Below are positions 1,077 to 28,069 of a stretch of DNA of 64,000 bases, piece by piece. The position numbers and the translations under genes were made by a program. Position 1 is the stretch's first letter; each line of letters begins with the position of its first letter. Source of the DNA: a virus; the IMG/VR virus record IMGVR_UViG_3300035670_000114, positions 1 through 64,000 of that record; one strand, given 5' to 3'. The notes beneath the pieces are model-generated. The model made no database searches. It was not told the origin of the DNA and was given only the letters and a program-made list of their open reading frames with translations.

Positions 1077-1085
1077 CTCGCTCAA
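1077..1085 (+). promoter_or_regulatory. late-type promoter element GGCAAGCTA
   Basis: Matches the recurring GGHANNCTA element of the virion region. It lies 12 nt before the chaperone start codon, closer than the usual spacing of about 20 nt. Confidence 0.4.
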
Positions 1086-1097
1086 CTCGCCACCCCC

Positions 1098-1790
1098 ATG
1101 TCGAAGCTCCCCTTCGTGGTCCAGCCTCGCCGTCAGCCCATCTTGGAGCAACTCGGCACCGAGGAAACCGGAATCCTCGAAATCAAGCGCCTCGGCTACC
1201 TGACCGTCGGCGAGAAGTCTTTCGTCCAGCAGGTCCAGCAACTGGACGGCGGCACCTCCCAGATCATCACCGTAAGCCGCCAGGTCGCCCGCAAGTTCGC
1301 CCTCGGCATGGACCAGGCCTACTCGCTGGTCCTACAAATCATCAGCGGCTCAACGCCCCAACTTGTCGACGACCTCGACCCCACCCTGACCACCCAAGAG
1401 CGCACGGCCCTCCACGACCAAAACGCCAAAGCCCTCAAGCAACTCGACCTCATCAACCAGATCGAGCAGGAATTCGCCGAAGACCTCACCCGCGCCGTCC
1501 GCGAGATGTCGGCCGGCCAGGTCCGCGAGAAGATCGTTCACGCCTGCTGTCTCCTCAAGTACCGCATCAACACCGACATCACCATCGACGAGGTCGAGAG
1601 GGTCCACCCCGACCTAATCGACGCCCTGGATGCCCTCTTCCGCGACGAGGAGCGCAAGTGCCTCGACGCCTTCTCGCCACCCGACGACACCAGCAACGAC
1701 GAAACCACCTCAACCTCCTCCTTCGAGGAAGCCGAAAAAAAGCCCGCACCCAGAAGGGCTACCCGTTCGAGGACTACTACTGGCGACTGA
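1098..1790 (+). CDS. tail assembly chaperone, short form (gpG-like)
   Basis: A 230-residue soluble protein with a mainly alpha-helical core (about residues 60-190) and an acidic, Ser/Thr-rich tail leading into EEAEKK, where the slippery sequence lies. In siphophages the short chaperone coats the tape measure together with a frameshifted long form before tail-tube polymerisation. The frame ends 48 nt beyond the slip site. Unusually, the gene lies upstream of the tail terminator and tail tube instead of directly before the tape measure gene. The role rests on the frameshift architecture, not on sequence similarity. Confidence 0.7.
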   Translation: MSKLPFVVQPRRQPILEQLGTEETGILEIKRLGYLTVGEKSFVQQVQQLDGGTSQIITVSRQVARKFALGMDQAYSLVLQIISGSTPQLVDDLDPTLTTQERTALHDQNAKALKQLDLINQIEQEFAEDLTRAVREMSAGQVREKIVHACCLLKYRINTDITIDEVERVHPDLIDALDALFRDEERKCLDAFSPPDDTSNDETTSTSSFEEAEKKPAPRRATRSRTTTGD

Positions 1791-2365
1791 AGTTCTACTT
1801 CCCGGGTGACCCCGAGTTCACCCACGAAAACTACTGGCGCCTCCCCTACCCCTACATCTTGGGCGCCATCCTGCGCCTCAACACCCTAGATCGCGAGCGC
1901 CTCCACAACCTGGAGCGTCCAACGGCCTACATCTCCTGGCAGACGGCCGAACTCAACCGCGACCGCAAGAAACAGCGCAAACCCTTCAAACCCGAAGACT
2001 ACTACTTCTACGCCGACCGCGAAAAGCAAAACCTCCCCGACGCCAGGTACGGCGCCGCCGCCCTGGAGCTCATCCGCCTCGGCAGCTTCCCAACCTGGGC
2101 GCTCTTCGTTTATGCCGACCTCAAGAGCCGCGCCGCCGACGCCCTCCCGCCGGAACTCCTCTGCTTCCAGTGCGACGACGCCATCCTGCTAGCACCCTCC
2201 ACCGACGGCGAACACGTCAGCGGCATGCTGATCGCCACCATCTCGGCCTCCGGTGAACGCCGCAAGATGACGTCCCCCTGCGGACGCACCATCGACGTCC
2301 GCATGCCCACCCTCTCCAGCAAGTTCCAGGCCTTCGAGGACGCCGACCTACGCCTCCTCCGCTGA
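1098..2365 (+). CDS. tail assembly chaperone, -1 frameshift long form (gpG-T-like)
   Basis: Slipping by -1 at 1736-1742 joins the first 215 codons or so to a second open frame running to 2365, adding about 207 residues. The added domain is rich in Tyr, Trp and Arg (YYW near its start, then repeated aromatic-Pro segments) and has no start codon of its own near the junction, as expected of a T-domain expressed only by frameshifting. In lambda-like phages the long form recruits tail-tube protein to the tape measure. Its 3' end overlaps the convergent HNH gene by 18 nt. Confidence 0.7.
1736..1742 (+). other. programmed -1 ribosomal frameshift site (A AAA AAG)
   Basis: Seven A residues followed by G give the heptamer A AAA AAG in the correct zero-frame phase, the same type used in E. 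coli dnaX. The -1 frame stays open for more than 600 nt. A GCCC/GGGC pairing lies immediately downstream (1742-1759) and might act as a stimulator. Confidence 0.75.
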
Positions 2366-2758
2366 GGCCCACTCGTCGCCATCCGGCAGCCTCCCGTTCT
2401 CCAGCCAGAACCGAATCCTGGCTTCGCGCTCCAGCGAGTGAAACGCCTGCGCCCTGAACCACTCAACCCAATCACTCGACCCCTTGCTCTGGTTGTGCTC
2501 CAAGCACGCCGGCAAGCAGTTGTTACTCGTGTCCTCCCCACCCCGGCTCTTCGCCTTCAGGTGATCAATCGTGAGCGACTTATCATCAATCGGCGGCTCT
2601 CCACAAAAGCAACACCGATTCCCCCATGCTGCCTTAATCGCCCGGCGCCAACGCCTTTTTGCCTCTGAGCTCGTTAAGCATTCCATGGCCGCAAGATACT
2701 GGTGATACGACAAGGCCACCCCTTTGGGAGCCGACGTTTCGACCGAACGGTCAATCAT
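2348..2758 (-). CDS. HNH homing-type endonuclease
   Basis: A 136-residue protein on the opposite strand to every neighbour. It has a zinc-binding and catalytic HNH core: C49/C50-x-C52, then D65-H66, N79/N80, C81-x3-C85 and H88. Such free-standing HNH nucleases are mobile and cut related phage genomes. It overlaps the last 18 nt of the tail-chaperone long form and is more AT-rich than the flanking C-skewed genes, both signs of insertion. It splits the tail operon between chaperone and tail terminator. A packaging-associated HNH role is less likely because it is far from the terminase. Confidence 0.85.
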   Translation of the reverse strand: MIDRSVETSAPKGVALSYHQYLAAMECLTSSEAKRRWRRAIKAAWGNRCCFCGEPPIDDKSLTIDHLKAKSRGGEDTSNNCLPACLEHNQSKGSSDWVEWFRAQAFHSLEREARIRFWLENGRLPDGDEWASAEEA

Positions 2759-2873
2759 TTCGGGTCAGACCTAGGACCCAATTCCAACCAAAGACCCGAG
2801 CCGTGATGCAACAAAATCTTTGATCGGCATGACCCGCTTGCGGCTGCACCCTTATCTTACCGCAACCGACCAA

Positions 2874-2882
2874 GGAACACTA
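2874..2882 (+). promoter_or_regulatory. late-type promoter element GGAACACTA
   Basis: A GGHANNCTA match 21 nt before the TTG at 2904, supporting that codon as the tail terminator start and giving the tail genes downstream of the HNH insertion their own promoter. Confidence 0.5.
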
Positions 2883-2903
2883 CCAACCAGCAGGGAGCCC
2901 ATC

Positions 2904-3341
2904 TTGCCGCAGTCGCACCCCACCACCCCAACCGCCATCTACGACACCCTGCTGGCTGACGCCACCTTCATGGCCCTTGTCGGCACGCGCACCTTCGAGG
3001 CCGGCAACACCACCCTGCCCGCGCTAAGCGTCCACACCCCAGGCGCCGACCTCCCCAAAACCAGCTCCATCTCCGGCCTGGAGGTCCTGATCCACGACGT
3101 GGTCCCCCAACGCCGCCGCAACTACCTAACGGGCCCTGCCGACATCACCTTCCAGTGGAAGGTCTACCTGCTCGCCTGGCCACCCGCCAACGGCTCCACC
3201 ATGACGGCCGCCACCACCCGCGTCCTCGAACTCTTCTCGAACGCCGAATCCATCGAGGTAGGCCCCACACCAACCGGCCTCGGCTCAATCGCCCAATCCC
3301 TAATCCTCATCTCGTCCGATTCCGCCATAACCGCAACCTAA
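2904..3341 (+). CDS. putative tail terminator protein
   Basis: A 145-residue protein just before the tail tube gene. An N-terminal helix (AIYDTLLAD, ALVG) followed by a beta-rich body with paired strands (DITFQWKVYLLAW) and a final helix fits the gpU/gp37-like terminator fold, which caps the growing tail tube. TTG 2904 is chosen because a GGGAG ribosome-binding site ends 7 nt upstream and a late promoter element lies 21 nt upstream; an in-frame ATG exists at 2829. The call rests on size, predicted structure and gene order. Confidence 0.65.
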   Translation: MPQSHPTTPTAIYDTLLADATFMALVGTRTFEAGNTTLPALSVHTPGADLPKTSSISGLEVLIHDVVPQRRRNYLTGPADITFQWKVYLLAWPPANGSTMTAATTRVLELFSNAESIEVGPTPTGLGSIAQSLILISSDSAITAT

Positions 3342-3370
3342 ACCCAATCACAAATCGGAAGCCTAATGCA

Positions 3371-3388
3371 AGCAGGTAGGCACCTGCT
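3371..3388 (+). other. perfect hairpin in the leader before the tail tube gene
   Basis: AGCAGGT pairs with ACCTGCT across a 4-nt loop. No T-tract follows, so it is not a standard terminator; it could be an RNA processing or stability element for the abundant tail-tube mRNA. Confidence 0.4.
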
Positions 3389-3409
3389 CTATCCCCTTGC
3401 GCCTACCGA

Positions 3410-3438
3410 GGCGTTCCTACCTGAGCGTTCCTACCTGA
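3410..3438 (+). promoter_or_regulatory. tandem 14-bp repeat with late-promoter-like core
   Basis: GCGTTCCTACCTGA occurs twice head to tail at 3411-3424 and 3425-3438. The first copy, read with the preceding G, gives GGCGTTCCTA, a one-base-longer variant of the late element, ending 23 nt before the tail tube ATG. This may be a duplicated promoter for a highly expressed gene. Confidence 0.4.
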
Positions 3439-3442
3439 GCAC

Positions 3443-4045
3443 ATGGCAAACTTCTCCACCGGCTTCGGCTACGACTTCTACATTGTCCCCCTGGCAGCCG
3501 CCGAAGTGGACACCGCCTTCACGGGCGTAAGCAACGCCGCAGGCTTCATCTCGACGACCACCGTCCAGTCCCCCTCCGCCGTCATCAGCTACGCCAGCGG
3601 CGTCTTCAGCGTGGGCGCCACGGCCCTCGACATGGATGGCACCGACAACCCCTTCCGTCTGTACGGCCTGAACAACGCGGCCCTGGAGACCGACACCAAC
3701 ACCGAGGAAGTGGTCACCTACGACGACGAAACCAAGGGCTTCAACATCACGCTGCCGACCTCCAAAACCTGGAGCTTCTCGCTGTCCGGCGTGGCCGACT
3801 TCAAGGATGCCGGCTACCACGTGCTGCGTCTCACCGAGCAGAACACCGTGGCCGACGCCCTCCGCGTGAAGGTGCTCCGCATCGGCCCCACGGGCACCGA
3901 CGAGGCCATCTACGGCTACGGCACCCTGCAGGGCTACACCGAATCCAACGAAGCCGGCTCGATCGTCTCCTGGGAGGCCACCATCCAAGGCTACGGCCCC
4001 TACCGCATCGACATCGACGCCAACGTCGCCCCTCCGACCCCTTGA
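3443..4045 (+). CDS. major tail tube protein
   Basis: A 200-residue, almost entirely beta-rich, neutral protein with no cysteine, followed immediately by a strong terminator, as expected for an abundant structural protein. It sits between the tail terminator and the tape measure, the canonical place for a lambda gpV/TP901-type tube protein. The Gly/Thr/Ser-rich N-terminus (ANFSTGFGYDFY) and C-terminal strand pair fit a tube monomer. Recognition is by order, size and composition. Confidence 0.75.
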   Translation: MANFSTGFGYDFYIVPLAAAEVDTAFTGVSNAAGFISTTTVQSPSAVISYASGVFSVGATALDMDGTDNPFRLYGLNNAALETDTNTEEVVTYDDETKGFNITLPTSKTWSFSLSGVADFKDAGYHVLRLTEQNTVADALRVKVLRIGPTGTDEAIYGYGTLQGYTESNEAGSIVSWEATIQGYGPYRIDIDANVAPPTP

Positions 4046-4075
4046 GCCCTTTACGGCCCCAACCGACCAAGCCAC

Positions 4076-4100
4076 GAGCCCCAACCGGGGCTCTTTTTTT
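4076..4100 (+). terminator. intrinsic terminator after the tail tube gene
   Basis: GAGCCCC pairs with GGGGCTC across AACC and is followed by seven T residues, a textbook rho-independent terminator. Confidence 0.9.
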
Positions 4101-4101
4101 C

Positions 4102-4111
4102 GGCATCCATA
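4102..4111 (+). promoter_or_regulatory. late-type promoter element variant GGCATCCATA
   Basis: A near match to GGCATCCTA with one inserted base, directly after the terminator and 19 nt before the ATG at 4131. Confidence 0.35.
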
Positions 4112-4130
4112 GACCACCCACCACTACGCC

Positions 4131-4292
4131 ATGCCCTCCACGGCCCGCTCGATCGCCAAGCAAATCATCGCCGAACGCACGGCCGCCGCCAACAGTTGCC
4201 CGCTCTTTTTCGTCGAAGAAATCCGAGTCGACCCCGACACCGGCAAGCTCAAAACAACCATGAAATCTTGCCCACTCAAGACGGAAGACTAA
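4131..4292 (+). CDS. small hypothetical protein upstream of the tape measure
   Basis: A 53-residue protein beginning at ATG 4131, basic and helical at the N-terminus (ARSIAKQIIAERT) with three cysteines. It fills the space between the tail-tube terminator and the tape measure, where other siphophages encode chaperones. Codon usage ends in C like the neighbours, which supports it being real. No family recognised. Confidence 0.6.
   Translation: MPSTARSIAKQIIAERTAAANSCPLFFVEEIRVDPDTGKLKTTMKSCPLKTED
4283..4291 (+). promoter_or_regulatory. late-type promoter element GGAAGACTA
   Basis: Overlaps the stop codon of the preceding small gene and lies 22 nt before the GTG start of the tape measure gene. 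Confidence 0.45.
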
Positions 4293-4313
4293 CGGCGTTA
4301 AGCGCCGACCGCA

Positions 4314-7300
4314 GTGGCTACTCCTATTGAATTCGAGGCGGTACTGAATGCGGCTCAGCTTAACAAGTACCTCGCAGACCTACGCGCCAACGTAGAAGGA
4401 ACCGCCAAGGCTCTCAACACCTCCCTTGGCGGCACCGTAACCAAAAGAATCGCCCTCGAAACGGTCGCCGACGAATCCGGCGCCCGCAAGCTCGTCGCCG
4501 TCGAAAAGGAGCGCCTCTCGGTCGTCGACAAAATCATCCAAGCCCAGAAAAAACTCGACAAAACCGAAACCGGCAGCGTCATCAACCTCAGCCAGGCCGT
4601 CAATGAGGCAAAGCAGGCCCGCAACGGGATCGCTCGACTCATTCAAGAAACCGACCAGTACGGCAACCGAGTCACCAAAGTCAACGAGAGGTGGATCGCC
4701 CAAAACCAGCGTGTCCGCGAGCTCTCCCGCGAACTCGACCGAGCCGGCGCCTCCAACTTCTGGCAAAGACTAAAGGCCGACCTCAATATCCAGGGCCTCG
4801 CCAGCGCCTCCAACCAGCTCGTCCAGTTCACCCAAGGTCTCCAGGCCGTCAGCATCGTCGTCGGTCAACTCTCGTCGACCTTCAACCGCTTCGTCAACGA
4901 AGCCGCCGAGATCCAACAATTCGAGCTCGCCTTCAAGGCCATCGGCGCCGGCGCCGGTGCAGCCTTCTCGTCCCTCCGCGACGCCGAACGCATCGCCCTT
5001 GGCCTTGGCACCAACCTCGACACCGTCCAGTCCGGCTTCCAGCAGCTCAGCCCGGTCGTCCTAAACGTCGGCGGCAGTATGAGCGACGTCTCGGCCATCA
5101 CCGAGGCCCTGTCGAGCCGCTTCGCCGCCTTCGGCATCTCTGGCGACCGCGCCCGCCGCGTCATGAACGGCGTCATCCAAGCTTTCGCCAAGGGCAAACT
5201 TCAGGCAGAAGAGCTAACCCAGCAGATCTCCGAAGCCGACCCCGCCTTCAAGACAGACCTCGCCAAGTCGATCGGCAAAACCGTCCAAGAACTGGAGGCC
5301 ATGGTCAAGGCCGGTGAAGTCACCACCGACGTCCTGATCGAGTTCCTGCCTGAACTTTCAAAGGCTGACCTCCTCTTCGGCAAGCTCGGCCCCAGCGCCA
5401 CCTCGGCAGTCGATGCCCTGGCAAGCGGCAACGCCACCATCGACCAGGTCCGCAACAACCTCCAAACCCTAAGCCAGCTCAACCTCCGCAACCTGGCCAC
5501 CATCGGCCAGCCCATCATCGAGGTCTTCCTGCGCGTTCAGGCCGTCATCACCGACTTCCTGACCCGCCTCTCCGAGAGCGGCGCCACCTCCAACATCATC
5601 AACGTCTTCTCCCGCATCTCGCAGTCCGGCGTCCGCCTCCTGGAATCACTTCTCCTGATTGCCGACGGCGCCGTCCGCGTCATCGGCGTCATCACGCCAT
5701 TCATCGACCTCTTCACTCGAATCCCGGGCGTCGTCGAACTCGCCGGCCTCGCCCTAATCGGCAAGCTGCTCGGCCCACTTAAGTCACTGCAATTCGGCTG
5801 GACCGCCCAGATCGCCGCCATCGACAAGTTCCGCACCGCCGCCCGCCGCGCCTTCGCGGGCGTCCAACCGCCTCCCATCAAACCCTTCGACGACTTCCGC
5901 CGCGAGATCGGCCGCCCCGTCACCGCCGGCCGCGTCAACTTTGGCGATGCCCTCAATTCCGCCCAGGCTGCCGCCAACGCGACCACCTCAACCGTCTCTG
6001 CCGCCGAGCAAAAGATCCGCAACCAATACCGCGCCACCTACACCGAATTCGCCAAACTCCAGCAACAAAAGACCGCCGCTGCGGCCGGCGGCACCGCCTT
6101 CCCCGCCAAAGAAGAAGCTCGCCTCCAGCGCCTCCAAGGCCGCGTCCGCGACCTCCAGCTCGAACTGCGCGACTTCTCGTCCCCCCGCAACCAAATCAAC
6201 CTCGGCGCCGACGCCCAGACCCGACAAGTCAAGAACCTAACCAACCAGATCGACCAACTGCAGGCCCGTCTGAAGGTCCAGGTACTCGAATCCCAGAAGG
6301 CTGCCTTGGCTGCAGCGAAGGGTGTCTCCGTGCCCACCCTCGAACGCGCCCCCGTCATCCTAACCGGCGACGAGCTCAACGAGCTGCGCCGAATCAACGC
6401 CGAAATCGACACCCTCAGAGACAAGCTGACCGCCGTGCCGGCCTCAAGTCTTCTCGGCAACCAACTCGACGACGCCGACGCCCTTAACCGAAAGATCACC
6501 GAGCTAACCGAAAAGCGCGACCAGCTCGTTGGCGCCACCACCGCTGCCGAAGACAAGATCCGCAAGCAGTATCGCGCCACCTACACCGAATTCGCCAAGC
6601 TACAACAACAAAAAGCAGACGCGGCAACCAGCGGCGTCGCCTTCTCGGACAGGGAAGAGGCCCGCCTCCAGCGTCTGCAACGCCGCACCACCAACCTCCA
6701 GTCCCAACTGCGCGACCTCTTCACGGGTGGCGCCGAGTCTGCCGCTCGCTTCGGCGACAGCCTGGAGGGCTCCGTGTCGGCCTCCTACGACCGCGCCATC
6801 GCCGCATCACAGGCCTACGCCAGCACCGTCTCCAGCGGCGCCAGCAAGACCCAAGTCGCGACCAGCCTCAACGCCGCGCTAGCCGCCAGTAGCGAATACT
6901 ACACCGAAACCCTAGGCCTCGCCAACCAGCGCCTGAAGGAGTACAACGCCTCCTCCACCGCCGTCACTCAGCGCATCGGCGAACTGACCCAGCTCCAGGG
7001 CCGCCTCTCCGCCCAGCTTGCCAGCACCAGTTACGGCAGCGCCGACGCCGACCGCCTCCGCACCCAACTCAAGGGCGTCACGCAGGAAATCTCCACCCTC
7101 CAGTCCTCCCAGAATAACCTCCAGTCCTCGATCCAGGGCACCAACCAGACCATCTCCGACATCAACGAGAGGCTCTCCCAGAACCAGCGAGCCGCCGCCA
7201 CTGCTGCAGCCAGCACCAACCGCCTCGGCAGAGCCGCGACTCGCGTTGGCTCTGCTATCGACGGAGCCGTTGGCCTCGCCGGCAAGGGCATCCAGGGCAT

Positions 7301-10300: not shown

Positions 10301-10481
10301 CTCGTCTTCCGACAGCCAGGCCATCCGCGAGCTCGCCTCCGTCCAGGTCCACCAATCCCAACAGATCGGCAAACTAAGCCGCGCAGTCACCGACCTCGCC
10401 CACAAAGACTGGAACGTCAACGTGGGCCTCAACAGCAGGGACGACGCCGTCTACCTCCGCGCCCTCAATAGCCGACTCTGA
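4314..10481 (+). CDS. tail tape measure protein
   Basis: At 2055 residues this is by far the longest gene, starting at GTG 4314. It is dominated by alpha-helical and coiled-coil segments rich in Gln, Glu, Lys and Ala. A hydrophobic Gly/Ala/Ile stretch lies near residues 990-1015, as is common in tape measures that insert into the host membrane. Two internal repeat sets are visible: about 60 residues repeated at 563 and 744, and a SGEI / INSPELP / LNGR pattern recurring between about 1370 and 1600. The length sets the tail length. The 7.5-9.5 kb part is noticeably less C-rich than the ends, suggesting modular growth. Confidence 0.95.
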   Translation: MATPIEFEAVLNAAQLNKYLADLRANVEGTAKALNTSLGGTVTKRIALETVADESGARKLVAVEKERLSVVDKIIQAQKKLDKTETGSVINLSQAVNEAKQARNGIARLIQETDQYGNRVTKVNERWIAQNQRVRELSRELDRAGASNFWQRLKADLNIQGLASASNQLVQFTQGLQAVSIVVGQLSSTFNRFVNEAAEIQQFELAFKAIGAGAGAAFSSLRDAERIALGLGTNLDTVQSGFQQLSPVVLNVGGSMSDVSAITEALSSRFAAFGISGDRARRVMNGVIQAFAKGKLQAEELTQQISEADPAFKTDLAKSIGKTVQELEAMVKAGEVTTDVLIEFLPELSKADLLFGKLGPSATSAVDALASGNATIDQVRNNLQTLSQLNLRNLATIGQPIIEVFLRVQAVITDFLTRLSESGATSNIINVFSRISQSGVRLLESLLLIADGAVRVIGVITPFIDLFTRIPGVVELAGLALIGKLLGPLKSLQFGWTAQIAAIDKFRTAARRAFAGVQPPPIKPFDDFRREIGRPVTAGRVNFGDALNSAQAAANATTSTVSAAEQKIRNQYRATYTEFAKLQQQKTAAAAGGTAFPAKEEARLQRLQGRVRDLQLELRDFSSPRNQINLGADAQTRQVKNLTNQIDQLQARLKVQVLESQKAALAAAKGVSVPTLERAPVILTGDELNELRRINAEIDTLRDKLTAVPASSLLGNQLDDADALNRKITELTEKRDQLVGATTAAEDKIRKQYRATYTEFAKLQQQKADAATSGVAFSDREEARLQRLQRRTTNLQSQLRDLFTGGAESAARFGDSLEGSVSASYDRAIAASQAYASTVSSGASKTQVATSLNAALAASSEYYTETLGLANQRLKEYNASSTAVTQRIGELTQLQGRLSAQLASTSYGSADADRLRTQLKGVTQEISTLQSSQNNLQSSIQGTNQTISDINERLSQNQRAAATAAASTNRLGRAATRVGSAIDGAVGLAGKGIQGIAAALGPIGIALLAIGAATKLYSDGVARANAASKEFKDQTEALTRSLAELKGAQSTIAQAPPESALESFYAKIALGAAQVGDGVIGLGERIISFYNQVTSAIDGAIEKTGPLANVLRVVTSPLITFGLFNVFAGGDTEAASLTREVESVEKQIKKTIVQANLLINALSQDITPEGIKEGADERVNAAFGTLDTAITAIQKKIDDYNLSIKSNESAIKTLGDEYTATAAKLKELEAAREAGTLQPEDAPKIDQYKRRLQSLSEEQEKTRAKNVILSKSANELSTVYEALSKRYDALAQAAGRVQTKNKDQLNSLGQLEERYKSLKDSVSELDLTTPKGRSELRRITEEAAEVSLKIREIKESADLIEKIKIEAQVDEGIERGEIASSISNLQYQIQLLEGISATVDINSPELPDLIARLTRAKRDLDDLNGRRAQITLQVVQQGISSGEIPRTIANLEELQRLLSERQKAIDIDTTQGRNELNLLTQEAAELSVQLRAIKELASFSEAIAISIEIDKQITSGKLAESISNIETKVQSLESASASVDIKSPELPRIISELTKAGDRIDQLNGRKAQVTVEILQQGISTGEISNTVSNLERIQQGLQQQQRTVDIYSPQADTIAQQIEQNRRQQEFATKSNDEIERELQRERASQKQQDLQMEHDRQRQIIQERKQALQDELNRSKEIADARVKELQQLTFSERELARLRVQDLQKQAQGGGRRGLEARAQLERLARDEQIARIKEEQDRKEAQIQQKIRQEEAIERQLEKTFREQMLAIQQEMLKLERQKAGQQITAAEQTLEERRKAEEASKQATSADEQRLANLREQAGQWARQAASAKETASISKQIVDDTSRYPQALSNGADQADRFAESLKSSAGSAEMIAKYLRSVASLNGQSVNINVNQVPARFLGGPVSAGQTYQVNEIGTEGFLSSGGALREISRPRNSLWRAPSSGTVIPADIWSAIKAPDNAISVNPSPLRNSSKAISNSRVEQAVKVAIARSSSDSQAIRELASVQVHQSQQIGKLSRAVTDLAHKDWNVNVGLNSRDDAVYLRALNSRL
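6000..6722 (+). repeat. internal duplication in the tape measure gene
   Basis: About 180 bp beginning at 6000 recur at 6543 with the same reading frame. Both encode a segment with YRATYTEFAKLQQQK followed by EEARLQRLQ and an amphipathic helix. The second copy has diverged by substitutions, so the duplication is not recent. Confidence 0.75.
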
Positions 10482-13272: not shown

Positions 13273-14627
13273 CCGACGTCATTACCACCGTCGTCCAGGT
13301 TTCGATCGCCGCCGGCCAGGCGAAGATCTACAACGGCCGCCTGCGCGTCCCGCCTCGACCGATCTCGGTCCTCCCCCTCCCTCCGAAGGTCCAGCCCAAC
13401 CAGGTCCAGGTTCCTGCAGCGGTTATCTCGACGGCAACCCCCAGCGCCGACGTCCTGCAGTCCTGCGTCCTCCTCAAGCCAATCCCCACGCCGACCCCAG
13501 GGCTCGACCCCATCGTCGACGAGGGAATCATTACGCCGGCCGCCCCGGGGGTCACCTACGCCTCACTAGAGACAATCACTGCGATTGTTGACACGTCCCC
13601 CAACCAGCTAATCGGCTGCATCAACGACGCAAGCGAGAACACCCAAAACCGTCTGAACCTCCTCTTCCCGTCCGCCATCGAAGGTGACGGCGTCGTCGAC
13701 CGCACCAGCACCGACATCTACGTCCTCAGAAGCTCCGTCTGGACGAACGTGGGCCCCACGCCAGGCCCTACCATCGTCTCGACCAACCTGGTGCCACCCT
13801 GGAACCAGATCGTCCCCCTCTACATCACCGTAAGGACGGCCACCTCAATCACCTCGATCGACTACTCGCTGGATCTCCAGACGATCGTCCCGAGCATCAC
13901 AACCCGGGGCTCCATCTTCGTCGAAAGTCGCACCGCAACCGTCGCTCGCTGTCCCTCGATCGGCCTCGATCTCGCTGTCTTCGAGCCCCGAGTCGCCATC
14001 GGCGGCGCCGCCATCTCGCCTGCGGCCCCCGTCCCCCTCACCACCCCCGCGCCCTCCATCAAGGCGGCCTCGATCGCCTACCCGGCGGCCTTCCCCATCG
14101 TCCTATCGACGCACGTCCCGATCGTACCCCGCCTGTCGACGGTCACCACCCCCGACGCACCCGCCGACATCTCGATCTCGACCCTGCCGCCATCCATCAC
14201 CGGCGGCAAGTCCTTCAACATTCCGCCTGCAGTCGTCGCGACCACGCCCCCCGTTCCCGAGATCTCGGCCGCCATCGTCGTCAACGTCCCCCTCACGACA
14301 ATCACCCCGTCGGCCGTCACCCCCCTCGTCGGCGTCAGCGCCACCACCAAGCCTCCAGCCGCTCAAACCACAACGACACCCATCACCCCAGTCCTCCAGA
14401 CGGGCGCCGCCGCCTACCCGCCGGCCGTCCAGATCACCACGACCCCCCGCTTACCCGACGCCCCGCGTCCCGCCACCAAGGTCGAGGTACCCCTCATCGT
14501 GGTCACCACAACTGCTCTCCCGCCCTCGTCCATGGTTGTCGACGAGCTCGCCAACTACTACCGCTCCTGGCCATTCCAGAACTACGACTGGCTGGCGGAC
14601 ATCATGCCCGAAGGCTGGGCGAACTAG
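13269..14627 (+). CDS. Pro/Thr-rich virion protein, tail appendage candidate
   Basis: A 452-residue protein coupled by ATGA overlap to the tail-tip gene. Residues 1-60 are a short beta/Pro segment, 60-220 look like a globular domain, and 225-420 form a low-complexity region dominated by Pro, Thr, Ala, Val and Ile with imperfect repeats of the form TTP-x3-PAP. An aromatic C-terminal cap (YYRSWPFQNYDWL) ends the protein. The extended region could be a stalk holding a tip domain. No enzyme motif is seen. Confidence 0.55.
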   Translation: MTDVITTVVQVSIAAGQAKIYNGRLRVPPRPISVLPLPPKVQPNQVQVPAAVISTATPSADVLQSCVLLKPIPTPTPGLDPIVDEGIITPAAPGVTYASLETITAIVDTSPNQLIGCINDASENTQNRLNLLFPSAIEGDGVVDRTSTDIYVLRSSVWTNVGPTPGPTIVSTNLVPPWNQIVPLYITVRTATSITSIDYSLDLQTIVPSITTRGSIFVESRTATVARCPSIGLDLAVFEPRVAIGGAAISPAAPVPLTTPAPSIKAASIAYPAAFPIVLSTHVPIVPRLSTVTTPDAPADISISTLPPSITGGKSFNIPPAVVATTPPVPEISAAIVVNVPLTTITPSAVTPLVGVSATTKPPAAQTTTTPITPVLQTGAAAYPPAVQITTTPRLPDAPRPATKVEVPLIVVTTTALPPSSMVVDELANYYRSWPFQNYDWLADIMPEGWAN

Positions 14628-14635
14628 GCACACTA
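14627..14635 (+). promoter_or_regulatory. late-type promoter element GGCACACTA
   Basis: Overlaps the end of the preceding gene and ends 19 nt before ATG 14655. Confidence 0.45.
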
Positions 14636-15011: not shown

Positions 15012-15907
15012 TGGCCGTCGTCACCTCCGCCTGGTCAACTATAGTCAACCAGAACTGGGCCAGTCCGACCTGGTCTACCGACGACCCAAGCTACAAGCTC
15101 GACGTTCAGTTGACGAACTGGATCAACGCAATCAACGACACGTCGGTAATCGAAAAAATCTTCGACCCAGGCCAGGCTACATCCAGAGATACGAGTGCCA
15201 AAGTTTATTGGCTCCTCAGGGCGAGGTCAGACGGAGATACTTCCTCTGACTATGGAATCTATTTCTTCGGCAGAAATGGCGGTACCTCTCTTCAGGATTC
15301 CGACTCTGGAACTTACTACCAACGCTCGGCCTCTTCAGAAAATCTTGGTGGAGGAACTTTCCAACGCAATGCAAGCAGCAGTTTATCAAATATAAGCTTT
15401 ACTTCGCCAAGGTCTCACTTCACTGCATACGAAGCCGCCGGCACGCTTCCTTGGTTCGCCTATTCGACTGTTTTGAGCGACGGAAATGGAGTCACCCATC
15501 TGCTTGCGCGAGTTTCGACTGCCGGAATGACCACTGGTAGCTACTATCCTGCGAGCGGATTAGGGAAATGGGTTTATATTGCAGACAGTAGCGCCCTACA
15601 GTCAGGTTACATCTACACGCCTCAGTCCAGGATAAATACTCCTTATATCGGAATCCCGTCATCCAGTTGGTCCAGGAACATTGTGGCCCCCTCCCCGTCA
15701 CCCGGCTATGGCTCGAACTACTTTTTTTCCATGCCTGCCATGTATGCTCCAAATCATTTCATAGGACAAGCAAGTCAGGATATTCTTGTCACAACTTCAT
15801 CCTCGGGGGGCTGGGGTGATACCACTACCTTTAATGGGATAACCTATACATGCCTAAGGGCACATACGGGTAGCAGCTCGCCGGTGACCTGGGTTAGGAC
15901 AAGTTAA
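15011..15907 (+). CDS. putative tail appendage or fibre protein
   Basis: A 298-residue protein rich in Ser, Gly, Tyr and Asn, with no helix-rich domain. The first 50 codons share the C-skewed late style, while the DNA after about 15200 is clearly AT-richer. This suggests a conserved virion-attachment end fused to a horizontally exchanged tip, a common pattern in host-recognition proteins. A short conserved-looking C-terminus (GDTTTFNGITYTC) resembles the ends of carbohydrate-binding fibre tips. Specific function unknown. Confidence 0.55.
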   Translation: MAVVTSAWSTIVNQNWASPTWSTDDPSYKLDVQLTNWINAINDTSVIEKIFDPGQATSRDTSAKVYWLLRARSDGDTSSDYGIYFFGRNGGTSLQDSDSGTYYQRSASSENLGGGTFQRNASSSLSNISFTSPRSHFTAYEAAGTLPWFAYSTVLSDGNGVTHLLARVSTAGMTTGSYYPASGLGKWVYIADSSALQSGYIYTPQSRINTPYIGIPSSSWSRNIVAPSPSPGYGSNYFFSMPAMYAPNHFIGQASQDILVTTSSSGGWGDTTTFNGITYTCLRAHTGSSSPVTWVRTS

Positions 15908-16148: not shown

Positions 16149-16157
16149 GGCATCCTA
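16149..16157 (+). promoter_or_regulatory. late-type promoter element GGCATCCTA
   Basis: Best-consensus late element, ending 20 nt before ATG 16178. Confidence 0.5.
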
Positions 16158-16612: not shown

Positions 16613-16616
16613 GGCA

Positions 16617-17990: not shown

Positions 17991-17999
17991 GGTATTATA
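17991..17999 (+). promoter_or_regulatory. late-type promoter element variant GGTATTATA
   Basis: Ends exactly 20 nt before ATG 18020; matches the late element except for CTA to ATA. Confidence 0.4.
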
Positions 18000-18019: not shown

Positions 18020-18136
18020 ATGATCCAACCCCTCTCCCAATCCGCCAAAGCCCAAACCCAAGCCAACCGCTACGCCTTCCTCGTCCAAGCCAGCAACAAG
18101 CGCCTCCTCGAACAGCTCCTAAAGAAGGTTAAGTAG
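18020..18136 (+). CDS. 38-residue basic helical protein
   Basis: A short frame from ATG 18020 to TAG 18134-18136. It encodes a Gln/Ala-rich helix ending in a Lys/Arg-rich tail (LLEQLLKKVK). Support comes from C-skewed codons like its neighbours and a late promoter element at the standard distance. It may assist capsid assembly given the following scaffold gene, but no function is known. Confidence 0.5.
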   Translation: MIQPLSQSAKAQTQANRYAFLVQASNKRLLEQLLKKVK

Positions 18137-18144
18137 GTATCCTA
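18136..18144 (+). promoter_or_regulatory. late-type promoter element GGTATCCTA
   Basis: Part of the palindromic TAGGTATCCTA (18134-18144), 30 nt before the scaffold gene start. The same 11-mer recurs at 19019-19029 before the capsid gene. Confidence 0.5.
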
Positions 18145-19020: not shown

Positions 19021-19029
19021 GGTATCCTA
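19021..19029 (+). promoter_or_regulatory. late-type promoter element GGTATCCTA before the capsid gene
   Basis: Identical to the scaffold promoter core, including the TAGGTATCCTA palindrome and a following TC. It would give the capsid mRNA an unusually long leader of over 110 nt (to ATG 19155), unlike the other late genes. Confidence 0.5.
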
Positions 19030-20180: not shown

Positions 20181-20189
20181 GGAATACTA
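20181..20189 (+). promoter_or_regulatory. late-type promoter element GGAATACTA
   Basis: Located 22 nt before ATG 20212; an AGGAG ribosome-binding site lies between them. Confidence 0.5.
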
Positions 20190-20211
20190 AGACAGCCCCA
20201 GGAGTTGGTCC

Positions 20212-20553: not shown

Positions 20554-20563
20554 GGAGGCACCC

Positions 20564-21709: not shown

Positions 21710-21722
21710 TCCCTCTGATCCC

Positions 21723-23017: not shown

Positions 23018-23030
23018 CACTAACCCATAG

Positions 23031-23041
23031 CACTACGAGGA
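23031..23041 (+). repeat. repeated leader CACTACGAGGA (second copy 23785-23795)
   Basis: The same 11-mer, preceded in both cases by CTAACC about 10 nt upstream, stands just before the start codons of the two lectin-like genes at 23043 and 23800. It includes a GAGGA ribosome-binding site and suggests that the genes moved or were duplicated together with their leaders. Confidence 0.6.
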
Positions 23042-23042
23042 A

Positions 23043-23765: not shown

Positions 23766-23799
23766 CCCCCACCCTAACCATTGCCACTACGAGGACGCC

Positions 23800-24636: not shown

Positions 24637-24678
24637 CACCTCCTAGTGTCCCCGTCTAAGGCGACCACCTGACGCCAA

Positions 24679-24687
24679 GGAACCCTA
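24679..24687 (+). promoter_or_regulatory. late-type promoter element GGAACCCTA
   Basis: GGHANNCTA match 47 nt before ATG 24735. If the TTG at 24690 were used the element would be too close, which favours the later start. Confidence 0.35.
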
Positions 24688-24734
24688 GCTTGCGCCCGCC
24701 GCGTCGTGCGCCAAGCTTCCCTCGCCTCATACCG

Positions 24735-25289
24735 ATGTCCGCTCCAACCGTCCCGCCGGCCATCCGCGCCTCACTGCTCGCCCTGGCGCTCCCCCTGCTC
24801 GCCGGCGGCTCCTACGTCTGGATCAGTTGCGAGCGATTCGCCTCCAAGCCTGGCGAGTGCGCCCTGCAGTGGACTCAGGCCGCTGGCGTTATCAGCACCG
24901 GCGTCGGCTGGGTCCAAGGCTTCTGGCAACCCAACCAGGTGCTCCGCAAGCGCGAACAAGAGCTCCTGCTCACGCCTCCGCCGGTTGCCGCCGGCCCCGC
25001 GCCCGAGCCGCCCGCCTCGCCCTCCTTCTCGTTCTCGACGCAGCCCTACTCTCCGCCCTCTCTTTCGCTTACCCCTGTTCCACCCGCAAGCGACGACGTC
25101 TCCTGGTCCTTCCCGGAGCCAACCCCTCCCCCGGCGGCCGACACCTATTCGACCGACGAGCTGGAGGCCATGACCGTAGTCGAGCTGCGCGAACTCGGCC
25201 GCAGGCTTGAGCTGCGCCCCCTCCACTCGAACGCCAGAAAGGGCGAGCTTGTCGAGTGGATCGCCGGCCAGCCCAAGCTCGTCGACTGA
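24735..25289 (+). CDS. membrane-anchored protein with C-terminal SAP/HeH-type motif
   Basis: A 184-residue protein from ATG 24735. A hydrophobic helix (about residues 9-27, LLALALPLLAGGSYVW) is followed by a Pro/Ser-rich linker (75-140) and a C-terminal helix-extended-helix pattern: YSTDELEAMTVVELRELGRR, then ARKGELVEWI. SAP/HeH modules usually bind nucleic acid. A second protein with the same ending is encoded at 26777. Pairing a membrane helix with such a module is odd; it could tether DNA at the envelope or be a spanin-like or virion protein. Confidence 0.6.
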   Translation: MSAPTVPPAIRASLLALALPLLAGGSYVWISCERFASKPGECALQWTQAAGVISTGVGWVQGFWQPNQVLRKREQELLLTPPPVAAGPAPEPPASPSFSFSTQPYSPPSLSLTPVPPASDDVSWSFPEPTPPPAADTYSTDELEAMTVVELRELGRRLELRPLHSNARKGELVEWIAGQPKLVD

Positions 25290-25307
25290 CGACTACGAGT
25301 GGGGTCG

Positions 25308-25316
25308 TGATAGGGT
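25308..25316 (+). promoter_or_regulatory. extended -10 promoter TGATAGGGT for integrase
   Basis: TG-n-TAGGGT ends 22 nt before the integrase ATG, the spacing seen for early/middle-type promoters, so integrase may be expressed independently of the late genes around it. Confidence 0.4.
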
Positions 25317-25338
25317 GTGAGCAGCACCCCAAGGCATC

Positions 25339-26199
25339 ATGACCCCAACCCTGCAGCAGACCTGGCACCAGTTTCTGGAGGAGCGCAAGATCTCGCTGTC
25401 GCCCACCAGCGTGGTCACCGACTACACGCAGGTGACCAAGTGGCTTGCTCGCTGCCCCGTCCAGGACCTCGAACAGGGCCGACGCATCTTGATCTGGATC
25501 CTCCAGCAGGAACCCGTCAAGTCGTCCCGCCGCGTCTGCATGTTTGTGCGCTCCATGTACAAGTGGGCCTCCTCGGAGGACGTCGGCATCCTGCAGCGCA
25601 ATCCCGTCGGCAACTTCAAGATGCCCAAGGCCCCTCAGGGCAACGGGGAGATCGTCGTCATCAACAAACAGGAACTCAACCTGATCATGATCGCCCTGCG
25701 CGTCAAGTCTCACCACCGCAGCGTCGACTGGTCACTGTTTGCCGAATTCATGCTCCAGACCGGCATGCGCACCGGCGAGGTACGCGCCCTTAAGTGGTCC
25801 GACATCCCGTCAGACGAGAACCGCATCCTGGTCCACAGCAACTACACCCTGACCCACGGCCACAAGCCCAGCACCAAAACCAACAAGCAGCGCTGGGTGC
25901 CGCTCAACGAGAGGTGTCTCGAAATCCTGCAGGAGCTCCCCCGCTCCAGCGAATACATCTTCCCCTGGAACCGTTACACCTTCCAGTCCTTCTTCCGCAC
26001 CAAGGTCGACCAACTCCATCGCGCCGGCTTGATCAAGGGCCGCTATCGCCCCTACGACCTGCGCCACGTCGCCATCAGTCGCTGGCTTGAAGCCGGCATC
26101 CCCGTCACGCAGGCCGCGTCGTGGGCCGGCAACACCAGCGAGGTCATCTGGAAGCACTACGCCAACAGCACCCAAGACTACGCCATGCCCGTCCTGTAA
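25339..26199 (+). CDS. int: tyrosine recombinase / phage integrase
   Basis: A 286-residue protein with an N-terminal SAM-like core-binding domain (to about residue 105) and a C-terminal catalytic domain. Catalytic positions visible are R144 in the TGMRTGEVRALKW box, R242 in YDLRH (Tyr replacing the first His, a common variant) and the nucleophile Y274 in WKHYA. The usual GH before it is GN. The protein looks intact. It is placed unusually between receptor-binding and virion-type genes, with an AAGG ribosome-binding site. It would integrate phage DNA into a host site; no attP core could be identified. Confidence 0.9.
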   Translation: MTPTLQQTWHQFLEERKISLSPTSVVTDYTQVTKWLARCPVQDLEQGRRILIWILQQEPVKSSRRVCMFVRSMYKWASSEDVGILQRNPVGNFKMPKAPQGNGEIVVINKQELNLIMIALRVKSHHRSVDWSLFAEFMLQTGMRTGEVRALKWSDIPSDENRILVHSNYTLTHGHKPSTKTNKQRWVPLNERCLEILQELPRSSEYIFPWNRYTFQSFFRTKVDQLHRAGLIKGRYRPYDLRHVAISRWLEAGIPVTQAASWAGNTSEVIWKHYANSTQDYAMPVL

Positions 26200-26222
26200 C
26201 TCGCCCCTACCGAGCTCCCTTT

Positions 26223-26231
26223 GGCAACCTA
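26223..26231 (+). promoter_or_regulatory. late-type promoter element GGCAACCTA
   Basis: GGHANNCTA match in the gap after integrase, 57 nt before ATG 26289. Confidence 0.4.
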
Positions 26232-26288
26232 ATGTGACGGCGCCAAACCTCTACGAGGCGCGTCTACGTTCACCTCTGGAGACCCACA

Positions 26289-26693
26289 ATGGGAGCCCGC
26301 TCTACTTATCCGATTCGCGAGGCGTTTCATCTCGACGAAAACACCCGCATCACCACGACCGCCAAGGACCTGGGTGTTGACCTCGGCAACATCAAGACCA
26401 TCCGCCTGATCGTCCTGGATGCCACCGTGGTGCAGGCGGCCGGCGGCGGCACCAACGCCACCATCCAACTGCAAGACGCCGACAACTCCGACGCCGTCTT
26501 CCACACCATCACCTCCGCCGACCTGGCCAACGTGGACGCCAATGGCGTGTACCTGGAGCACGTGCGCGGCGCCCTCTGGGAAGGCATCCGCAACGTGAAG
26601 TACGTCTACACCGCCGGCACCGCTGGCGGCGGCACCGCTGGCGCCATCTCCGGCTTCTCGGTGTACGTGGACGCAGTGGAAGTCAACTACTGA
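26289..26693 (+). CDS. small virion protein (decoration or fibre-associated candidate)
   Basis: A 134-residue beta-rich protein with alternating strands (TIRLIVLDATVV, TIQLQDADNSD, VKYVYTAGTAGGG) and no cysteine. Codons revert to the strong C bias of highly expressed late genes. Its own promoter and terminator suggest high, separate expression, typical of a decoration or major minor-capsid protein. The placement right after integrase indicates that int was inserted into a late block. Confidence 0.6.
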   Translation: MGARSTYPIREAFHLDENTRITTTAKDLGVDLGNIKTIRLIVLDATVVQAAGGGTNATIQLQDADNSDAVFHTITSADLANVDANGVYLEHVRGALWEGIRNVKYVYTAGTAGGGTAGAISGFSVYVDAVEVNY

Positions 26694-26718
26694 TCTCCCC
26701 ACTCAAATCAGCCAACCA

Positions 26719-26743
26719 AGCCCCGGCCACCCGGGGCTCTTTT
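26719..26743 (+). terminator. intrinsic terminator
   Basis: AGCCCCGG pairs with CCGGGGCT across CCAC, followed by CTTTT. It directly precedes a late promoter element. Confidence 0.88.
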
Positions 26744-26745
26744 GT

Positions 26746-26754
26746 GGAAACCTA
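26746..26754 (+). promoter_or_regulatory. late-type promoter element GGAAACCTA
   Basis: Starts three bases after the terminator T-tract and ends 22 nt before ATG 26777. Confidence 0.5.
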
Positions 26755-26776
26755 AGTCACCGCACCCGCGCCTTCA

Positions 26777-27169
26777 ATGCACCTGCAGCCGTACCCCCAA
26801 TACTTCCTCAAGGACGGTGAACGCCGTGCGGCCAACTACACCGTCGAGGCCCGCGAGCTGCTCGAAACCGGCTGGGTCGCCGAGAAGAACGCCCTGATCG
26901 AGGCCCTCTCCTCCGCACCCACCACCGAACCCGCCCCCGAGCCCGAACCCGCTGAGCCGGCCGAGCCCGCCGAGCAAGTCGACGCCGACGTCGTCGAAGA
27001 CGAAGACGCCGAGCCCGCGCCGATCGACGAGCGCATCGAGGACGCCGACGTCGTCGACTTCGCCGCCATGACCAGGCTCCAGCTCCTGGCCTACGCCGAG
27101 AAGCGCGGCGTTGACCTGCGCAACAACCTCTCGAAGGCCGAGCTGATCGAAGCCTGTCAAGCCCTCTGA
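26777..27169 (+). CDS. SAP/HeH-motif protein with acidic Pro-rich linker
   Basis: A 130-residue protein: an N-terminal segment with an amphipathic helix (NYTVEARELLETGWV), a highly acidic Glu/Pro/Ala linker (about 50-95), and a C-terminal helix-extended-helix motif (MTRLQLLAYAEKRG, then LSKAELIEACQAL). The ending parallels that of the membrane-anchored protein at 24735. HeH/SAP modules bind DNA or RNA, and in phages they also occur in head proteins. Likely a virion or DNA-organising protein. Confidence 0.6.
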   Translation: MHLQPYPQYFLKDGERRAANYTVEARELLETGWVAEKNALIEALSSAPTTEPAPEPEPAEPAEPAEQVDADVVEDEDAEPAPIDERIEDADVVDFAAMTRLQLLAYAEKRGVDLRNNLSKAELIEACQAL

Positions 27170-27351
27170 TGGAATTCGAGTACACCACAGGGCCCCGCTA
27201 CCTGGAGGACGGCCGAAACCTCGACTCCGACGTCTCCGCCGTCCACCCGGTCGTAACCCGCCGCGAGATCAATCAGCCAGTGTCTGACGGCTCCCTCGGC
27301 GAACCCGGCTACGAACCAGGCCAGTTCAACAAGGACAACCTGCCCCTCTGA
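27169..27351 (+). CDS. small hypothetical protein
   Basis: A 60-residue acidic protein starting in a TGATG overlap. It has no hydrophobic segment and is rich in Gly, Pro and Asp towards the end. It forms a tight unit with flanking small genes. No family recognised. Confidence 0.55.
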   Translation: MEFEYTTGPRYLEDGRNLDSDVSAVHPVVTRREINQPVSDGSLGEPGYEPGQFNKDNLPL

Positions 27352-27353
27352 CC

Positions 27354-27434
27354 ATGGCAATGAGCAAAATCGCCGCCTCGGCCCACGGCTCCACCAAGAA
27401 GAAGCCCGCCCCCAAGACGACCAAAGGCAAATGA
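27354..27434 (+). CDS. 26-residue Lys-rich peptide
   Basis: A short frame from ATG 27354 ending in ATGA overlap with the next gene. The product is basic (TKKKPAPKTTKGK) and could bind DNA or the virion interior. Its place between two coupled genes and its codon style support translation, but it remains tentative. Confidence 0.4.
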   Translation: MAMSKIAASAHGSTKKKPAPKTTKGK

Positions 27435-27706
27435 CCATCAAGTACAGGGGCGAAACCTTCGAGGACTACAACACGCCCAAGGCGACCCCGAATCACCCGA
27501 CGAAGTCCCACGCCGTCTTGGCCCGAGAGAAGGGCAAAGTCAAGCTGATTCGCTTCGGCGAGCAGGGCGCTACCGGCTCGCCATACCGCAAGGGCGAGAG
27601 CAAGGCCGACACCCAGCGCCGCCGCGATTGGCTGAACAGGCACGAAGAGAACATCAAGAAAGGCAAGCTGTTCCCAGCCTGGTGGGCCAAGAAGGTCAAG
27701 TGGTAG
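27431..27706 (+). CDS. conserved phage protein, DUF5872-like
   Basis: A 91-residue basic protein with the distinctive order KYRGETFEDYN-P, THPTKSHAVLARE-type centre, KVKLIRFGEQGATGSP, KGESKADTQRRRDW, and an AWWAKKVKW end. This pattern is very widespread in phages of aquatic bacteria and I recognise it as the DUF5872-type family. Its function is unknown; it is usually found among virion or packaging genes. Confidence 0.75.
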   Translation: MTIKYRGETFEDYNTPKATPNHPTKSHAVLAREKGKVKLIRFGEQGATGSPYRKGESKADTQRRRDWLNRHEENIKKGKLFPAWWAKKVKW

Positions 27707-27717
27707 CCCCACACAAA

Positions 27718-27726
27718 GGCAGCCTA
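27718..27726 (+). promoter_or_regulatory. late-type promoter element GGCAGCCTA
   Basis: Ends 22 nt before ATG 27749. Confidence 0.5.
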
Positions 27727-27748
27727 CTGCATGTTGCGGTGACCTCCA

Positions 27749-28045
27749 ATGGCTGAGGCAAAACGAAAGAGATCAACCGCTGACTTCTACGCCAGCAACC
27801 CCGAGGCCTACGCCAAGAAGCTTCGCTACGACAAGAAGCGAAACGCCAAGCCCGACCGCAAGAAGTACCGCGCCGAGCTCGCCCGCGAGCGTCGCGCACG
27901 CGGCATCATGGGCAAGGGCGGTCCAGACGTCAGCCACACCGCTGGCGGTGGCTTCAAGCTCGAAAATCCCTCTCGCAACCGCGCCCGAAACGGCCACGGC
28001 AACAACGGCCGCCTCGCGCCAGGCAAGGGCACCAGGCGCTCCTGA
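27749..28045 (+). CDS. basic conserved phage protein of unknown function
   Basis: A 98-residue, very basic protein with a Tyr/Lys/Arg-rich N-terminal helix region (ADFYASNPEAYAKKLRYDKKRN) and a Gly/Asn/Arg tail (MGKGGPDVSHTAGGG). I recall similar small basic proteins accompanying the DUF5872-like gene in cyanophages. High charge suggests nucleic-acid contact, perhaps packaged in the capsid. Own late promoter. Confidence 0.6.
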   Translation: MAEAKRKRSTADFYASNPEAYAKKLRYDKKRNAKPDRKKYRAELARERRARGIMGKGGPDVSHTAGGGFKLENPSRNRARNGHGNNGRLAPGKGTRRS

Positions 28046-28060
28046 CCCAGTTGATCGACA

Positions 28061-28069
28061 GGCATCCTA
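28061..28069 (+). promoter_or_regulatory. late-type promoter element GGCATCCTA before the lysis genes
   Basis: Perfect consensus; 43 nt before ATG 28113. It would place lysis under late control. Confidence 0.45.

Follow-up and report, generated by a model that had tools for sequence, protein, structure and literature searches.

The window analysed here is a stretch of 64,000 nucleotides of DNA of a cyanobacterial virus, a cyanosiphovirus, taken from the start of an 86.9-kb contig. It encodes two sigma factors of its own, one of which lies between the genes for the terminase large subunit and a primase:

35017..35853, + strand: second sigma factor of the phage, 278 aa, of the group-2/RpoD-like kind (phrog_351, E 3e-34; Pfam Sigma70_r2, 2.6e-12)
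42126..43655, + strand: large subunit of the terminase, next to the group-3 sigma gene on its upstream side
43657..44295, + strand: phage "group-3/SigF" sigma factor, 212 aa (phrog_36098, E 4e-62, residues 2-180)
44320..45903, + strand: DnaG-type primase, downstream neighbour of the group-3 sigma gene

The group-3 sigma factor is 49% identical to gp21 of S-CRES3. Its region 2, the part for core binding and -10 melting in the sigma70 family, gave only a weak Pfam match (E 0.007), and profile matches to PDB entries over this part of the protein were to SigB, SigA, and FliA. The AlphaFold2 model (pLDDT 79.5) returned sigma factors as its top Foldseek matches, with low TM-scores. No Sigma70_r4 match was observed at E<=1 in three homologues or at E<=0.01 in the window protein; nevertheless, the three C-terminal helices of the predicted model could be a remnant of region 4, which is not excluded. 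A search of the GTDB genome collection for a cellular donor gave a single match, on a metagenome-assembled contig; therefore, no close cellular donor was found, and a cellular origin was set aside.

An earlier note on this DNA had described a recurring element, GGHANNCTA, about 20 nt before late genes. The copies of this putative late promoter element are as follows:

1067..1075, + strand: element GGCAAGCTA, 22 nt before ATG 1098
2874..2882, + strand: element GGAACACTA, 21 nt before an in-frame TTG at 2904 (start codon uncertain)
4283..4291, + strand: element GGAAGACTA, 22 nt before GTG 4314 (tape measure protein)
14627..14635, + strand: element GGCACACTA, 19 nt before ATG 14655
16149..16157, + strand: element GGCATCCTA, 20 nt before ATG 16178
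17991..17999, + strand: one-base variant GGTATTATA, overlapping ATG 17999; doubtful
18136..18144, + strand: element GGTATCCTA, 30 nt before ATG 18175 (head scaffolding protein)
19021..19029, + strand: element GGTATCCTA, within the leader that precedes ATG 19095 of the major head protein gene
20181..20189, + strand: element GGAATACTA, 22 nt before ATG 20212; top score with the profile trained on relatives
24679..24687, + strand: element GGAACCCTA, 18 nt before GTG 24706 (uncertain) or 47 nt before ATG 24735
26223..26231, + strand: element GGCAACCTA, 57 nt before ATG 26289
26746..26754, + strand: element GGAAACCTA, with an intrinsic terminator immediately 5'; 22 nt before ATG 26777
27718..27726, + strand: element GGCAGCCTA, 22 nt before ATG 27749
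28061..28069, + strand: element GGCATCCTA, with ATG 28113 and then the endolysin gene (28541) downstream
46259..46267, + strand: element GGCACCCTA, 30 nt before ATG 46298; not within the span of the earlier note
50340..50348, + strand: element GGCAGACTA, followed after 32 nt by the portal protein gene (50381)
53253..53261, + strand: element GGCAGACTA, with TGCTATAAT close behind at 53266
3357, 10368, and 23983: further exact copies within the 1077-28069 span, the one at 10368 inside a called gene
46031 and 63323: further exact copies outside the coordinates of the earlier note

Twelve of the 14 sites first listed carry an exact GGHANNCTA where it had been placed; the copy listed under 1077 in fact lies at 1067, and 17991 is the one-base variant above. 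Two looser variants had also been proposed, of which 4102 (GGCATCCAT) is off by two bases, while 3410 (GGCGTTCCT) resembles the motif too weakly to be included. The statement that nine sites lie 19-22 nt from a start is about right, with gaps of 18-22 nt to a plausible start at 1067, 2874, 4283, 14627, 16149, 20181, 24679, 26746, and 27718, although two of these start codons are uncertain. The palindrome TAGGTATCCTA, 11 bp long, was correctly reported as common to the copies at 18136 and 19021, and of the two terminators said to stand just before copies, the one directly 5' of 26746 was confirmed and that before 4102 was seen by eye only. The sites at 19021, 26223, 28061, and 3357 lie 40-80 nt away from a called start. 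Exact copies that had been missed are those at 46259, 50340, 53253, 46031, 63323, 3357, 10368, and 23983.

The occurrence, position, and strand of the element in the contig depart from expectation. Exact GGHANNCTA occurs 21 times on the forward strand and twice on the reverse, while the reversed pattern, used as a control, occurs 10 times on each. Intergenic sites account for 20 of the 23 copies (25% expected), so that the motif is not equally frequent inside genes and away from starts, as the refuting condition of the earlier note would have required; moreover, 8 of the 23 lie 17-26 nt 5' of a called start, where 0.15 would be expected (p 2e-12). Within the window, both strands together hold 22 copies against 10.3 expected, and 0 of 100 shuffles reached 22. 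The chance rate had previously been put at about a dozen per strand, which is too high; by chance, each strand of the window should hold about 5, and the case is therefore stronger than had been thought. No exact forward copy was found in the contig from 64 to 86.8 kb. With a profile built from relatives only, the window's late-gene sites rank top. The possibility that the pattern reflects chance or the way sites were picked out beforehand has hardly any standing left, since it is contradicted by the shuffles, by the reversed motif, and by the genomes of relatives without the sigma gene; no evidence for it remained after these tests, and it was rejected.

The logo of the element resembles a -10 element, with GG at -14 and -13, A at -11, C at -8, T at -7, and A at -6. 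As the earlier note had also remarked, there is no constant -35 box: no such signal was detectable in 82 aligned sites from isolates or in 82 environmental sites, which gave two largely independent logos. Initiator-like purines are enriched 5-6 nt past the motif, at the predicted start; in the 17 window sites alone, this purine signal was not significant. The earlier note had placed the expected starts about 7 nt past the motif. Promoters of the sigma70 type showed no excess in the window from 14 to 30 kb (5 found, 3.9 expected), and host sigma70 promoters were rejected as drivers of the late block. A second element, TGCTANANT, which looks like the sigma70/group-2 class, is confined to the region outside the 1-30 kb late block. 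Judged by its letters, TGCTATAAT at 53266 would be a sigma70-type extended -10, making a double promoter with the element at 53253 possible.

Conservation of the element and its co-occurrence with the sigma gene were observed among relatives. In isolates that carry the phrog_36098 sigma, the motif stands before 20 of 102 annotated starts in S-CBS2, 18 of 111 in S-CRES1, 21 of 122 in S-CRES3, and 11 of 131 in P-SS2 (70/466 pooled), and the reversed motif before none in each. Cyanosiphoviruses without this sigma gave 1/214 in total (S-CBS4 0/105, KBS2A 1/63, S-CBS3 0/46), and all relatives in which the motif was found in use encode a sigma of their own. An unseeded dyad search placed sub-patterns of the motif first or near first in all four sigma-bearing isolates. 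Late genes carry the motif far more often than other genes (63/184 vs 11/282; odds ratio 12.8, p 2e-18); still, about two-thirds of late genes have no exact copy within 14-30 nt, and operons or weaker sites must therefore be assumed. An intrinsic terminator precedes or spans the element at 12 of 74 motif genes, compared with 18 of 339 others. Among 31 environmental phages with the phrog_36098 sigma, motif copies favour the sigma strand by 591 to 166, as in 30 of the 31 records, and 107 copies, compared with 15 of the reversed motif, lie at 17-26 nt from a start. The suggestion of a phage-directed sigma factor is supported, in that the contig encodes a phrog_36098 sigma and the motif tracks it in isolates and environmental phages alike.

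Because the motif stands before virion genes and every motif-using relative has its own sigma, GGHANNCTA very probably serves to switch on the late virus genes, a reading without experimental data so far. We hold with good confidence, in the absence of binding or transcript-start data, that late promoters in this cyanosiphovirus lineage have it as their sole detectable specificity element, read as a -10-type element by the host RNA polymerase core with the phrog_36098 sigma. The host core would take up this sigma factor (43657-44295), and the holoenzyme would recognize G-14 G-13 H-12 A-11 N N C-8 T-7 A-6; transcription would begin at a purine 5-6 nt beyond the last A, giving virion-gene leaders of ~14-17 nt. 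No -35 box would be needed because the module that reads such a box, region 4, appears to be missing from the sigma factor. That the phrog_36098 sigma and no other binds the element, and that the element fires late, are both inferred.

A promoter element could also be read by a different factor, either the group-2/RpoD-like sigma (35017-35853) or a host factor of the SigF type. Nearly all records with the group-3 sigma have the group-2 sigma too, as do nearly all motif-bearing phages, and co-occurrence alone therefore cannot fully separate the two. However, S-CBS3 and KBS2A also encode a group-2 sigma, yet their genes are not preceded by the motif but for one start in KBS2A, and the group-2-like TGCTANANT avoids the late block; on these sequence comparisons, the group-2 sigma is probably not the reader, although it is not excluded. 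As for SigF, its core promoter in Synechocystis has GGTAA at -12 (PMC2758279), which resembles GGHA, but SigF promoters also require TAGGC at -32, and no conserved upstream box was seen here. Overall, we consider a different reader unlikely, if still worth keeping in mind.

The tight spacing to start codons would also suit an RNA-level signal, such as a translation enhancer or a processing site. This is very improbable, given that only about one-third of late genes have the element, that it follows or overlaps intrinsic terminators, that its invariant positions, A-11 and T-7, are those expected of a -10 element, that purines stand where transcription is predicted to begin, that no Rfam match was found in the late block, and that the motif tracks the sigma gene. 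An operator or stoperator for a phage repressor might be suspected from the many dispersed copies 5' of genes and from the two palindromic copies in the window, but most copies are asymmetric, with strong strand bias and fixed spacing to starts, and we give this idea almost no credence. Stoperators of the mycobacteriophage type are not known to be tied to start codons in such a manner.

An unexpected feature is the C-terminus of many phrog_36098 sigmas. Endings of the QxxLF type, a bacterial beta-clamp-binding peptide, occur in 34 of 65 distinct sigma C-termini, being present in the sigmas of many relatives and absent from some clades. The window's sigma ends in RQLVFGG, which is no clean match and was not counted as a clamp peptide. 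No match to the bacterial beta clamp (PF02768) was found in 12 records, no PCNA-like clamp is annotated in the isolates (annotations only), and no DNA polymerase (PF00476, PF07733) was found. Among other proteins of seven phages, only RusA of S-CBS2 has such a tail. The tails in many relatives and the lack of a clamp in the phages tested suggest that, much as in T4, the host clamp couples late transcription to replication. In much of the lineage, a QGSLF-type tail may tether the late sigma to the host beta sliding clamp, so that late promoters would be active only on replicating DNA, an independent T4-style invention with a bacterial clamp and apparently one phage protein. Without binding data, this proposal is tentative, and we lean slightly towards doubting it.

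Cyanosiphoviruses have been known to carry sigma genes of the group-3 type since 2009, from P-SS2, whose ORF003 is a group-3 sigma factor of the same family as that of the window (PMC2784084). That study searched for sigma70-type promoters only and assigned no element to ORF003 (PMC2784084), whereas GGHANNCTA was found before P-SS2 genes here. No earlier report of an element or promoter for such sigmas was found in the open-licence literature. With the element, regulons can be mapped in several cultured cyanophages and in dozens of uncultured ones. Promoters of cyanobacterial SigF (group 3) have the form TAGGC-N-GGTAA (PMC2758279); the phage element likewise has GG where the -10 region has its upstream edge, and the phage sigma is annotated as SigF-like. 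In contrast to SigF promoters, there is no -32 box, CTA is added at -8 to -6, and the sigma lacks a detected region 4; when the sites were compared with SigF regulon promoters, GG..A was shared and no TAGGC was seen at -32.

Further parallels lie in other phages, and the proposed single-element mechanism would resemble those of phiEco32 gp36 and T4 gp55. The phiEco32 gp36 protein is a phage sigma without region 4 that uses the host polymerase at single-element middle/late promoters (tAATGTAtA), with starts 6-8 bp downstream (PMC8948821). The cyanophage system differs in its element, in its unrelated hosts, and in a sigma of the phrog_36098 family, and the clamp-binding tail of many cyanophage sigmas is not known to have a counterpart in gp36 (PMC8948821). 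The likeness to T4 gp55/gp33/gp45 lies in late promoters limited to a -10-like element, a sigma cut down to a region-2 part plus extra helices, and, in many relatives though without a clean copy in the window's sigma, a C-terminal sliding-clamp-binding peptide on a linker (PMC2988020, PMC7892883). Unlike gp55, the cyanophage sigma keeps region-3-like helices and a finger loop, and its clamp peptide, missing in some clades including that of the window, fits the bacterial beta-clamp motif. Also unlike T4, no phage clamp was found (PF02768, 12 records) and no gp33-like partner was seen, although gp33 homology was not directly searched. Judged from sequence, the phrog_36098 sigma looks like another natural example of a reduced, single-element late sigma, with a clamp-binding tail in many relatives; the authors of the T4 structure foresaw further cases of clamp-activated transcription (PMC7892883).

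The recurring GGHANNCTA element, which the earlier note had proposed as a phage-specific late promoter, was borne out in the window, with 22 copies against 10.3 expected. Over the whole 86.9-kb IMG/VR virus contig to which the window belongs, the motif occurs 21 times on the forward strand and twice on the reverse, and the reversed pattern, used as a control, occurs 10 times on each. A simple codon model was used to call genes; by these calls, 20 of the 23 sites were intergenic (25% expected), and eight lay 17-26 nt upstream of a called start, where 0.15 would be expected. Two entries in the note's site list need correction: the copy given at 1077 was off by ten (1067), and the weak variant at 3410 should be dropped. 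Five further exact copies, one of them upstream of the portal gene, lie beyond the span it covered.

The distant kin of this contig are the Synechococcus siphoviruses S-CRES3, S-CRES1 and S-CBS2. Using the starts of the published annotations, the element was found 10-26 nt upstream of 20/102 starts in S-CBS2, 18/111 in S-CRES1, 21/122 in S-CRES3 and 11/131 in P-SS2, and the reversed motif preceded none in these four isolates at that distance. For the gap between element and start, the peak lay at 22-24 nt in P-SS2; the Synechococcus phages peaked at 19-22 nt. The element is a late-gene feature: within the virion blocks (our own delimitation) it stands before 63 of 184 genes, elsewhere before 11 of 282. 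When spaced trinucleotide pairs were searched for without a seed, pieces of the element ranked first or nearly so in each of the four isolates, and only mid-list in the window's contig, where CTA-N1-ACT and GTGCTA led. A profile built from the relatives only ranked the window's late-gene sites among its top-scoring matches. It is the relatives that decide that the element is real. Divergent pairs on opposite strands, overlapping or close, were also seen in S-CRES3 (L004 34942/34970 and L001 2707/2715) and S-CBS2 (L011 7382/7387).

The presence of the element follows one gene:

43657-44295, + strand: phrog_36098 sigma gene, flanked by terminase large subunit and primase

Its product is 49% identical to S-CRES3 gp21 ('SigF'), and close relatives were found only in S-CBS2, S-CRES1-3 and P-SS2 (tblastn, 50,697 phage records). 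In three cyanosiphoviruses without this sigma, of which KBS2A and S-CBS3 do have a group-2 sigma, the motif preceded 0/105, 1/63 and 0/46 starts. Across 31 sigma-bearing records of environmental phages, element copies on the sigma strand outnumbered those on the other by 591 versus 166 (30/31 records), compared with 383 versus 312 for the control pattern. The surroundings of 79 sigma genes contained 107 element copies with an ATG or GTG 17-26 nt downstream, versus 15 such copies of the reversed motif.

Judged from its bases, the anatomy of the element is that of a putative -10 element. When the invariant A is set to -11, the invariant T falls at -7 and GG at -14/-13, an A-11/T-7 placement common to bacterial -10 elements. 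At the position of a -35 box, both the isolate and the environmental logos are nearly flat. Five to six bases past the element, pyrimidines give way to purines, with a purine share at those two positions of 76-79% in isolates and 57-74% at environmental sites; the purine signal was not significant when only the 17 window sites were considered. An intrinsic terminator often precedes copies of the element, and twice a copy spans it. A terminator straddles the predicted start at L011 33353 (S-CBS2) and L001 24934 (S-CRES3). Initiation at the element would therefore yield transcripts missing the 5' portion of the stem, and read-through would be terminated there, which may serve as an insulator.

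Other promoter classes were also observed. A second element, a sigma70-type extended -10, has nine forward and two reverse copies. It lies outside the 1-30 kb late block, mostly in the replication/early part, and may be the promoter class of either the phage group-2 sigma or the host's:

Window 37417, 39054, 49690, 53266, 53867, 58061, 59730; contig 76335, 79853: TGCTANANT sites

Four bases separate GGCAGACTA from a downstream TGCTATAAT at window 53253-53274, and both classes appear to be stacked. P-SS2 (GQ334450) carries a separate TTGACA-type set whose spacer has a conserved CGCC, with a conserved GTCGAGA-AACACCACC stretch upstream of the start:

P-SS2 record 12247, 12609, 12897, 13220, 27244: examples of TTGACA-type promoters

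The phrog_36098 sigma itself is reduced. Pfam detected region 2 only. Among solved structures, SigB, SigA and FliA were matched by profile, and the hits fell on their region-2/3 part. Two AlphaFold2 models (pLDDT 79.5 and 75.6; pTM 0.46 and 0.42) gave region-2 and region-3-like helices, with a low-confidence loop at the finger position; three short C-terminal helices in these models may be what is left of region 4.

The tail of this sigma family was unexpected: 34 of 65 distinct C-termini close, right at the end of the chain, with Qx(x)[LMI][FL], mostly QGSLF, and the bacterial beta-clamp motif is a C-terminal QL(S/D)LF (PMC9690074). Among 750 proteins of seven phages, one protein besides the sigma has a clamp-type ending:

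L012 (S-CBS2) 15103-15474: RusA-like endonuclease, C-terminal QEPLF

In tail-bearing sigmas Q and F are invariant, L is present in 30/31 and the linker is variable and sometimes shorter; this invariance is partly a selection effect, because the group was picked largely for having the tail. No bacterial-type clamp gene was found in 12 phage records, and seven records showed neither a family A polymerase nor a Pol III alpha one, so these phages presumably use the host replisome. A clean tail is missing in P-SS2, in the window's own sigma and in the closest kin of the latter (L005-L008), so the suggested coupling of late transcription to replication through the host clamp applies to the family and not necessarily to the window phage. 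At the S-CBS2 sigma gene (L012 20350-20600), the annotated product stops early (...VPQGRC) and a different frame runs on into the family tail and ends QGSLF, which suggests a frameshift, in the record or in the phage; relatives have intact forms.

P-SS2 was reported to have group-2 and group-3 sigmas, the latter expected to recognize its own regulon, and the promoter search covered sigma70-type promoters only (PMC2784084). In the open-licence literature we found no report assigning an element to the group-3 sigma. On the reading given here, the sigma and the element would together form a single-element late promoter system directed by a phage sigma, and such systems are already known in kind. 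T4 gp55 has the same tail design, but is paired with T4's own clamp (PMC7892883, PMC2988020). The apparent lack here of both region 4 and a -35 box has a parallel in phiEco32 gp36 (PMC8948821).
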